From Candidatus Methylomirabilota bacterium (GTDB lineage Bacteria > Methylomirabilota > Methylomirabilia > Methylomirabilales > Methylomirabilaceae), in NCBI GenBank assembly GCA_028870115.1, contig JAGWQH010000028.1, forward strand, positions 1 to 64,000: DNA of 64,000 bases, read 5' to 3'. Below are positions 29,764-42,082 of this stretch, one piece after another. A model generated the notes under the pieces. It was not told the origin of the DNA. It saw only the letters and a program-made list of their open reading frames with translations, and did not search any database. The position numbers and the translations under genes are program-made. Within the stretch, counting starts at the first letter, position 1; the number at the start of each line of letters is the position of its first letter.

Positions 29764-30192
29764 ATTGGGTAACGAAATGGGTAATAACAGAGGCAGGGCT
29801 GGCGGTTTTGGAGAAGGGAAGAACGAGGCAGAAATCATGACGATTCCTGCCGAATTGGGTGTCGATCATCGCGTCACACTGAATGTGGCAAAAACAAAAA
29901 GAGCGCGCCGTGCAGGCTTGGACCCCTCCAGCTTAGCCAACCTATGGATGGAAACACTGGAGGAACCTACAACGGACTTACCGCTCATCTCGTAAATTAT
30001 GCTTACGGCCTAGTCCGCGTCAAGATACAATTACAGGGCAGCATAGCTTTACGCTGGGCGACAAGCGAGTATTCCCAGGGAATGTAAGCGCCTCGCCGAG
30101 CAGGAGAAGTCCATTCAGCGAGGATTCGAGTAGGCTGCATCTACTGTGTACCGATCTGCAGACAGAAAACAACCGGCGGAAGGAATGACCCG
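29764..30192 (+). other. 429-base gap between the fic remnant and the AAA ATPase gene
   Basis: An open frame from 29753 to 29995 (80 codons) begins inside the fic tail with a Gly-Asn-rich repeat and has no family resemblance or good ribosome site; I regard it as unlikely to be a gene. The rest, to 30192, shows no coding signal and probably carries the promoter of the ATPase/DUF4276/methylase unit. Confidence 0.45.
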
Positions 30193-40373: not shown

Positions 40374-40943
40374 TTGTTAATTCGGTTGTTTTCGTCAGAA
40401 GTACGTGTAAGTCTTCTCACCCTTTTTTTTACTAGGTTGGATAAGCGCTTTTATGTGAGAGAGTTGGCGCGACACCTTGGGCGGGATATCTCTGGGATTA
40501 AGCGAGAGTTGGACAACTTGGAAAGGGCTGGTTTGTTGGCTAGTGAAAAGGTTGGAAATCTTCGGTACTACCGGGTCAATAAAGCGTCGCCCCTATACAC
40601 TGAGATCAGGGGAATTATCGCGAAGACCACTGGCATCTATGCGAGCCTCCGAGAAGGGCTCAGAAGGATCAAAGGAATCCAGAGGGCCATGGTATATGGG
40701 GCAGACCAGCGGGAGGGCGAGGAGGGCCTCGGTCCTGTGCGATTAATGGTGATCGGTCAAGTCGATTTGAATGAGCTTAATGAGGCAATAAGAGTGCTGG
40801 AGAGCCGCTTGAATCGTGAGATTAACTACCTTGTGTTTGATGAGGCCGAATATCAGCGGAGAAAGACAGAGGATGACCCGTTTCTGGCTGAAGTTCTGAA
40901 AGGTCGAAAGTCAATCCTGATCGGAACGGACGATGGCCTATGA
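40374..40943 (+). CDS. HTH protein fused to a nucleotidyltransferase-like domain (MNT-type antitoxin)
   Basis: A 189-residue protein with an N-terminal winged helix (FYVRELARHLGRDISGIKREL, then LERAGLLASEKVGNLRYYRV) and a C-terminal half shaped like minimal nucleotidyltransferases (KGIQRAMVYGADQREGE, VRLMVIGQVDLNELNEAI, LNREINYLVFDEAEYQRR). The canonical GSxxxG and D-x-D are degenerate (YGADQREG), so transferase activity is doubtful. The start is a TTG preceded by GAGGTGGG. It overlaps the HEPN gene by 11 bases. HTH-nucleotidyltransferase plus HEPN is a known toxin-antitoxin layout, with this partner as regulator or antitoxin. Confidence 0.8.
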   Translation: MLIRLFSSEVRVSLLTLFFTRLDKRFYVRELARHLGRDISGIKRELDNLERAGLLASEKVGNLRYYRVNKASPLYTEIRGIIAKTTGIYASLREGLRRIKGIQRAMVYGADQREGEEGLGPVRLMVIGQVDLNELNEAIRVLESRLNREINYLVFDEAEYQRRKTEDDPFLAEVLKGRKSILIGTDDGL

Positions 40944-41382
40944 GGAACTTCGAGAACGGGGGCTGGTTGAGGAAATTAGGCCCGACTTCCGCCAGGTCTC
41001 GATGCTGCTCGTGCGGGCGTCGAAAGATTTAGCGACCGCTGGAGCAAATATAAATATTGATAAGGAGTGGGCATATATCATTGCCTATCAGGCGATGCTG
41101 AGAGCGGCGAAGGCGTTGGTGATGGCTGAAGGGTGGCGAGCAAAGGGTCGTGATCAGGCGAGAACATTCGTCATATTAATTGGAGAGATATTGGGTGAAG
41201 AAGGACGAGCGCTCGTCAACGGTTTCGATCGCATGCGTCGTAAGCGACAGGACCTTATGGAGGAACCGCAGACGCCGATTCCTCGATACGAGGTTGAGGG
41301 AGCGCTTAAAGATTCGCAGGTCTTAATTGAGAGGCTGGTGGAGCTTGCGCGTCAGAAAAATCCACAGTTAGCGTTCTTGTAG
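40933..41382 (+). CDS. HEPN-domain protein with degenerate RNase motif
   Basis: A 149-residue helical protein: VSMLLVRASKDLATAGANIN, WAYIIAYQAMLRAAKALVMAEG, GRDQARTFVILIGEILGEEG and RMRRKRQDLMEE. The last segment is where HEPN ribonucleases carry R-x4-6-H; here it reads RKRQDLM, so His is replaced by Gln, and GRDQARTF also lacks the His often present. It may be an inactive or non-RNase variant. It is translationally coupled to the upstream HTH-nucleotidyltransferase gene. Confidence 0.8.
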   Translation: MAYEELRERGLVEEIRPDFRQVSMLLVRASKDLATAGANINIDKEWAYIIAYQAMLRAAKALVMAEGWRAKGRDQARTFVILIGEILGEEGRALVNGFDRMRRKRQDLMEEPQTPIPRYEVEGALKDSQVLIERLVELARQKNPQLAFL

Positions 41383-41430
41383 CGAGACCGACCAGAAAAC
41401 CGGTGGCGTAGAAAGGGGGTGAGGGACTGT

Positions 41431-41502
41431 ATGGCAGCGAAGAAGCCAGCACCAAAGAAGGCGGCGCCGAAAACGGGAAAAAAGGGCGGGAAAGGTTGTT
41501 AG
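41431..41502 (+). CDS. Micro-ORF: Lys/Ala/Pro-rich basic peptide, 23 residues
   Basis: A short frame starting MAAKKPAPKKAAPKTGKK and ending GGKGC, preceded by AAAGGGGGTGAGG. The composition is like histone H1-type or AlgP-type tails. A close relative lies 52 bases downstream (41555-41605). The repetition of both peptide and ribosome site argues that they are translated. Confidence 0.6.
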   Translation: MAAKKPAPKKAAPKTGKKGGKGC

Positions 41503-41554
41503 CCTCGATCGGCCGTGTCAGAGGCCTTAATGAGGAAAGGAGGTGAGAACCTCA

Positions 41555-41605
41555 ATGGCAGCGAAGAAAAAGGCAGCACCAAAGAAGGCGACGAAGAAGA
41601 AGTAG
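41555..41605 (+). CDS. Micro-ORF: Lys/Ala-rich basic peptide, 16 residues
   Basis: Encodes MAAKKKAAPKKATKKK behind a strong AAAGGAGGTGAG site. Nine of 16 residues are Lys or Pro-Lys context, and it starts with the same MAAKK as the peptide at 41431. Possible nucleic-acid-binding peptide; function unknown. Confidence 0.6.
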   Translation: MAAKKKAAPKKATKKK

Positions 41606-41739
41606 GAACATTGTTAGGCCTTGGTGACCGAATCGACCCCGAGAAGCCGGAGATGAAGCGGCTCTATGTGAACGGCTTCGGGTTAATCATCGGGGAAGAG
41701 TTGGTCGGTTGCCTTATCGGTGGGAAAATACCACCCGCT

Positions 41740-41764
41740 GCTGGGGGGGGTTACCCCCCCCAGC
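41740..41764 (+). terminator. Strong GC hairpin downstream of the micro-ORFs
   Basis: GCTGGGGGGGG (41740-41750) pairs perfectly with CCCCCCCCAGC (41754-41764) over 11 bases with a TTA loop, followed by GGTATTATAATTAT. The stem is typical of an intrinsic terminator although the T run is broken. Confidence 0.6.
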
Positions 41765-42082
41765 CGGTATTATAATTATCATACATGATTCCACGTGTTG
41801 GGCATCAACATTGAATGGCCAACGCAATAGCATGTAAAGGTACAATTGGGGAGGTGAAGCTTAACTTGTCGGAGTACCCGAAGAAAGTAATGTCTGATCG
41901 GTAAAAGAAGTCCTGGAGTTCTCCCATCGGTCGTTAGTTCATTCCGCTTGTTGCCCCCGGCGGTGAGCCTCGTTACGTTATATGTGAAATGTAGTGGCTC
42001 TCGCTACTCTGCCTATCCGTATCGCTTCACCCCCTCCGCGTCTCTTTACATCATCTCCACTTTATGTTATAGGAAAGTAGGA
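41765..42082 (+). other. Intergenic region before lptC
   Basis: 318 bases without a recognised gene. A GGGGAGGTG site near 41850 precedes a 12-codon TTG frame, which could be a leader peptide but is too short to support. The lptC operon promoter is expected here. Confidence 0.4.

Follow-up and report, generated by a model that had tools for sequence, protein, structure and literature searches.

Are the two very short, lysine-rich reading frames in this 64,000-nt stretch of DNA (the window, to which all positions refer) genes, and if so, what could such small peptides do for the cell? Both frames follow a Shine-Dalgarno (SD) sequence and are in turn followed by a GC hairpin:

41412 to 41422, forward strand: SD site 1, AAAGGGGGTGA, 8 nt before the ATG of micro-ORF1.
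41431 to 41502, forward strand: micro-ORF1, MAAKKPAPKKAAPKTGKKGGKGC, 23 aa, called on third-position-biased substitutions in 11 genus orthologs.
41536 to 41546, forward strand: SD site 2, AAAGGAGGTGA, 8 nt before the ATG of micro-ORF2.
41555 to 41605, forward strand: micro-ORF2, MAAKKKAAPKKATKKK, 16 aa, called on codon-position differences of 14/0/244.
41740 to 41764, forward strand: hairpin GCTG8-TTA-C8AGC, a perfect 11-bp GC stem with no U-tract, found at the locus in 12 genus genomes.

The start codons and lengths (23 and 16 codons, both beginning MAAKK) are as the earlier note had claimed, as is the strength of the SD sequences, which match the anti-SD complement at 10/11 (site 1) and 11/11 (site 2) positions, versus 5-7/11 at neighbouring genes. 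The description of the peptides as almost only Lys, Ala, and Pro suits micro-ORF2 (14/16 residues) but fits micro-ORF1 less well (16/23), where the other residues include four Gly, one Thr, and one Cys. Across the class, micro-ORFs (n=130) are 60% Lys and 24% Ala, with lengths of 10-32 aa (median 13) and net charges of about +7 to +16. The Gly-Cys C-terminus of micro-ORF1 (41494-41502) occurs in 11 genus genomes. Cys is also terminal in some Nitrospirota peptides (loci L248, L257, and L260; ...KGKC, ...KKKKC), and together these suggest a conserved terminal thiol.

The combination of strong SD and basic frame is rare. AAAGGRGGTGA occurs 3-10 nt before an RTG at only six sites in the 2.8-Mb genome (122 contigs), and two of these are the micro-ORF sites; another, AAAGGAGGTGATCC (15-codon frame), resembles the antisense of the 16S 3' end. 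Micro-ORF1 and micro-ORF2 were the sole matches in the 64-kb window when it was screened for Lys-rich ORFs no longer than 70 aa behind an SD, and the same screen of the reversed or complemented window gave 0 matches. Two further candidates were rejected: a third micro-ORF near 41870 (TTG start, LSEYPKKVMSDR after GGGGAGGTGA), which is unconserved in the genus alignment, and an SD-sequestering hairpin (GAGGT-GAGA-ACCTC before the ATG). The latter is striking in some species but occurs at 18/101 distinct sites versus 13 expected from shuffled spacers.

Such sites raise the question of whether the locus acts as RNA. The tandem anti-SD complements could form a ribosome- or 16S-binding decoy in a non-coding RNA, with the Lys codons being incidental purine-rich sequence; the two SDs are more complete than is usual and have few equals in the genome, and purine-rich codons could lengthen the pairing. 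Interspecies comparison speaks against this. Single-base codon differences at positions 1/2/3 among the 11 genus orthologs number 52/35/454 for micro-ORF1 and 14/0/244 for micro-ORF2, and the same count over 36 Rokubacteriales pairs gives 180/309/1120 and 77/131/1107 (all are pairwise counts of events that are not independent). In the genus alignment, indels are whole codons, the start and stop are kept, and Ala and Lys codons are exchanged synonymously. Comparative evidence thus shows protein-coding selection on both frames, which are predicted to be translated genes because the changes between species sit almost only on third codon positions. Third-position bias, whole-codon insertions, and kept starts and stops therefore exclude a purely RNA-level reading. 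The ORF regions also lack RNA structure beyond chance, and no Rfam family matches at the micro-ORF locus, so that we consider a decoy RNA highly improbable. The sole Rfam match in the window is a DUF3800-V RNA (RF02964) at 29896-29992 on the minus strand.

The most informative part of the locus, in our ranking, is its operon context, which the earlier note had missed. Two genes precede the micro-ORFs on the same strand:

40374 to 40943, forward strand: F0, a winged-helix (ArsR-like) plus degenerate MNT-type nucleotidyltransferase domain protein, 189 aa, TTG start.
40933 to 41382, forward strand: F9, a HEPN-domain protein (PF05168) that overlaps F0 by 11 bp and has no RX4HXY RNase motif.

F0 has weak wHTH matches in Pfam/NCBIfam, and its Nitrospirota ortholog matches the Polbeta and MntA models. 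A Foldseek search with the AF2 model of F0 matched its N-terminal part to ArsR repressors and also returned the MNT antitoxins 6m6u and 8xeo. In the alignment, GSx10DxD is lost in Methylomirabilis (YGADQ...GPVRLMVIG) and replaced by SDVN or SNIN in Nitrospirota, whereas GS...SDxD is intact in 15/15 F0 paralogs. F9 matches Pfam HEPN (E=3e-6), and its AF2 model (pLDDT 92) has as its best PDB match the HEPN protein 2hsb (TM 0.68); querying PDB sequences with the HEPN profile gave 0 matches. R102 and Q106 of F9 are invariant, with RMRRKRQ where RX4HXY, the RNase and AMP-acceptor motif, would lie, and His is not conserved. The protein is closer to Class II PF05168 HEPN, the class without RX4H (PMC7641770). 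In Rokubacteriales a different protein, F8, takes this upstream position and combines a winged helix with an AbiEi_2 region (PF09952, 29.7 bits versus a cutoff of 21).

How widely is the pair kept? Conservation in relatives had been named as a test in the earlier note, and we find the micro-ORF pair class-wide; a lack of conservation is clearly not what the genomes show. A DNA search recovered the SD plus ORF2 block from further families within the class, and the pattern GGTGA-N3-10-RTG-N0-9-(AAR)3-GC matched 84/95 class genomes and 32/33 genera, with 0 matches for a reversed-pattern control over the class genomes. Exactly two ORFs are present in 61/67 loci read, one in five, and three in one; paired ORFs are usually spaced 45-60 nt apart. 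Any locus found by the pattern necessarily contains GGTGA and AAR codons, and the ORF screens in turn demand at least 7 or 8 of 11 SD matches. Because this selection is circular, claims of linkage and absence rest on profile-chosen sets and paralog controls.

These sets agree in linking peptides to regulators. For Nitrospirota, where a looser DNA pattern was too unspecific for use, the protein-profile route was taken in its place. A search with the F0 profile, blind to micro-ORFs, yielded 30 readable loci. At 29 of them F0 is followed, on its own strand, by 1-3 Lys-rich micro-ORFs, whether or not HEPN is present; the 30th ends at a contig edge. Methylomirabilales F0 genes in genomes missed by the DNA pattern are followed by pairs in 4/4 cases. 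F0 paralogs of the class with intact GS...SDxD have micro-ORFs in 0/15 cases, and 20 homologs from a deltaproteobacterial phylum have none bar one spurious nonapeptide, MKKRGSKDG. The peptides accompany the catalytically dead branch of the F0 family, given the 29/30 Nitrospirota F0 loci with micro-ORFs and the intact-motif paralogs with none. Pairs lie 47-144 nt behind F0 plus F9 in Methylomirabilales and 26-126 nt behind F8 in Rokubacteriales, where micro-ORFs are directly downstream of F8 in all loci read. Wherever the contig covers the upstream side of a locus, F0/F9 or F8 is present there on the same strand; only loci cut by a contig end lack such a gene. Comparative evidence thus shows putative micro-genes that are paired, carry near-perfect SDs, and are linked to predicted regulators at each locus uncut by a contig end. 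Peptide length at one syntenic place in Nitrospirota ranges from 13 to 67 aa, and one Nitrospirota locus (L119) has a micro-ORF peptide without F0. Homology of the peptides between phyla would follow from synteny, the sequences themselves being too low in complexity.

Among the matches listed, similar ORFs (10 to about 100 aa, MAKKKAAKKK...) also occur behind AAAGGRGGTGA in other contexts in Planctomycetota, Omnitrophota, Patescibacteria, Verrucomicrobiota, Chloroflexota, and other phyla; from such simple sequence, their homology to the micro-ORFs cannot be claimed. In Planctomycetota (L056, L095, L109, L118, L131, L138, L142, and others), one Lys-rich ORF of about 16-60 aa with an AAAGGRGGTGA SD is flanked by a nadD-like gene on the opposite strand and a diaminopimelate-decarboxylase-like gene. 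This arrangement recurs in many Phycisphaerae/Sedimentisphaerales and is a second conserved context. Desulfobacterota/Nitrospinota (L101, L051, and L067) have short Lys-rich ORFs that contain multiple Cys (such as MAEKKKACGCGCIP... and ...SSCKSC) and are possibly metal-binding relatives or lookalikes.

Given their neighbours, the Lys peptides could be toxins or antidotes in a three-part toxin-antitoxin or defence module alongside HEPN-MNT. F0 and F9 share fold and gene order with HEPN-MNT pairs, and F8 matches AbiEi_2. As judged by comparative evidence, however, the predicted active-site motifs of both the MNT and the HEPN protein are lost. GSx10DxD and RX4HXY carry the activity of known HepT/MntA pairs (PMC7641770), and a regulatory role has been proposed for domesticated HEPN-MNT derivatives whose active sites are dead (PMC3710099), for which reasons we do not class F0/F9 as toxin-antitoxin. 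No peptides accompany the intact MNT paralogs encoded in the same genomes, and a near-universal, mostly single-copy, syntenic presence across the class is unlike that of mobile toxin-antitoxin loci. We regard such a module as quite unlikely.

The hairpin bears on another possibility, that translation of, or stalling on, the Lys-rich micro-ORFs controls downstream genes in cis through the G8/C8 stem. The arrangement of short ORFs and strong SDs, then a hairpin, suits a leader or attenuator, and here lptC lies downstream on the same strand. The perfect 11-base stem that had been noticed downstream of both frames is present (fold of the segment, -27.7 kcal/mol; z -2.8). It is followed by ATTATAATTAT rather than a U-tract, and a terminator scan does not report it. 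Within the 12 genus genomes the G8/C8 stem is found at this locus and almost nowhere else; it is a genus-level feature, outside the widely conserved unit. In the genus alignment its loops vary while the stem is near-invariant, so covariation cannot be judged. A separate region in one genus genome, away from the micro-ORF locus, has four G6/C6 hairpins 72 bp apart (L290, G010:C91, 1509-1741). Restriction to the genus, the missing U-tract, and the placement of the ORFs at the 3' end of a regulator operon all count against attenuation, as do the downstream genes, which vary by family and are often on the opposite strand. This makes control in cis very unlikely. In the genus, the hairpin probably lies at the 3' boundary of the operon.

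We return to a regulator and peptide operon, in which a winged-helix regulator is followed by tandem translated micro-genes. We hold it slightly more probable than not that a domesticated regulator here doses H1-tail-like, polyanion-neutralising peptides. In Methylomirabilales and Nitrospirota the regulator would be F0, partnered by the HEPN protein F9; in Rokubacteriales it would be the AbiEi_2-like winged-helix F8. Co-transcription of regulator and micro-ORFs is strongly implied by the gene layout, because the 26-144 nt gap, SD counted, leaves little or no room for a promoter; in most loci the SD nearly fills the interval from the regulator stop to the first micro-ORF. Translation of the peptides far in excess of the regulators is likewise strongly implied, because the SDs of the regulator genes are weak compared with the near-perfect ones of the peptides. 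With 10-32 aa, net charges of about +7 to +16, and no hydrophobic core, the peptides would stay disordered and may bind and neutralise polyanions as histone-H1-tail-like counter-ions. Nucleoid DNA is the likeliest target, with RNA or polyphosphate possible. As a former HEPN-MNT or AbiE antitoxin, the regulator would set the peptide dose, probably via autoregulation of the operon.

The peptide appears to be the constant part of this arrangement, because the regulator is exchanged (F0/F9 versus F8; L119 without F0) while the peptide persists. Function by charge fits, since the peptide is constant under regulator swap, its length is elastic, and the 67-aa form is weakly HC2/H1-like. A peptide of only 10-16 residues should by itself bind DNA weakly and would need high abundance or a partner, and the genus-wide C-terminal Cys of micro-ORF1 is unaccounted for by pure charge. 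Alternatively, the product may be a ribosome- or RNA-associated basic peptide, or a polyphosphate-granule peptide, instead of a nucleoid component. Very strong SDs suggest output like that of ribosomal proteins, and the H1-like protein AlgP has been found with polyphosphate granules (PMC9239181). Only charge and the M-A-x-KKK start are conserved, however, over lengths of 10-67 aa, unlike a fitted ribosomal protein; we consider this alternative unlikely, though worth keeping in mind. A broader form of the regulator and peptide operon is offered more tentatively, as one we doubt somewhat more than we believe: a class of phylum-spanning, chromatin-type bacterial effectors, previously undescribed and encoded as tandem pairs of 10-32-codon polycation genes behind super-strong SDs. 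A pseudo-enzymatic regulator derived from HEPN-MNT or AbiEi would set their dose, a toxin-antitoxin system having been domesticated to run a protamine-like peptide.

If the operon is as proposed, bacteria across the class and in Nitrospirota keep dedicated genes for peptides as small as 10-16 residues, conserved above all in their positive charge, and a catalytically dead, domesticated HEPN-MNT pair gains a concrete partner. The usual gene callers have a length limit of about 30 codons, and ORFs below that limit would explain why a nearly universal locus was overlooked in the methane-oxidising Methylomirabilis and in Rokubacteria. It would also name a compact operon directly testable by small-protein detection. 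An open-access literature search found no description of these peptides or of their family, operon, or function. Their class-wide pairing behind the gene of a DNA-binding regulator points to an undescribed operon for very short histone-tail-like peptides. The micro-ORFs may already be anonymous entries in global smORF catalogues such as GMSC, which takes ORFs of 30 nt or more (PMC11364881).

Among known systems, the closest in composition are the H1-like proteins Hc1/Hc2 and the C-terminal KPAA tail of AlgP, which share with the micro-ORF peptides a Lys/Ala/Pro-rich, repeat-like KKAAPKKA composition and an elastic length. The earlier label of histone-tail-like thus holds for composition (60% Lys and 24% Ala in the 130 class ORFs), but no HC2- or H1-like model matches above cutoff: the 23-aa peptide hits 0 families in Pfam and NCBIfam, and the 67-aa Nitrospirota form at the orthologous place scores 18.1 bits against HC2 (Pfam; cutoff 40) and 17.0 against H1-like (NCBIfam; cutoff 80). 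From their composition, the micro-ORF peptides are probably disordered, as H1-like tails are. The known H1-like proteins are larger: in AlgP, a 154-residue repeat tail is joined to a folded N-terminal part (PMC9239181). The peptides here, by contrast, are free-standing, 10-32 aa long, and encoded in tandem pairs within a regulator operon. Like HepT/MntA (HEPN-MNT, type VII), F0/F9 have both folds, the MNT-then-HEPN order, and the gene overlap; unlike them, they lack GSx10DxD and RX4HXY, have a winged helix fused to MNT and two added peptide genes, and are conserved in syntenic distribution. F8 shares the winged helix and AbiEi_2 region (PF09952) of the AbiE (type IV) antitoxin, but no AbiEii toxin was seen beside it, and in all loci read its downstream neighbours are the Lys-rich micro-ORFs.
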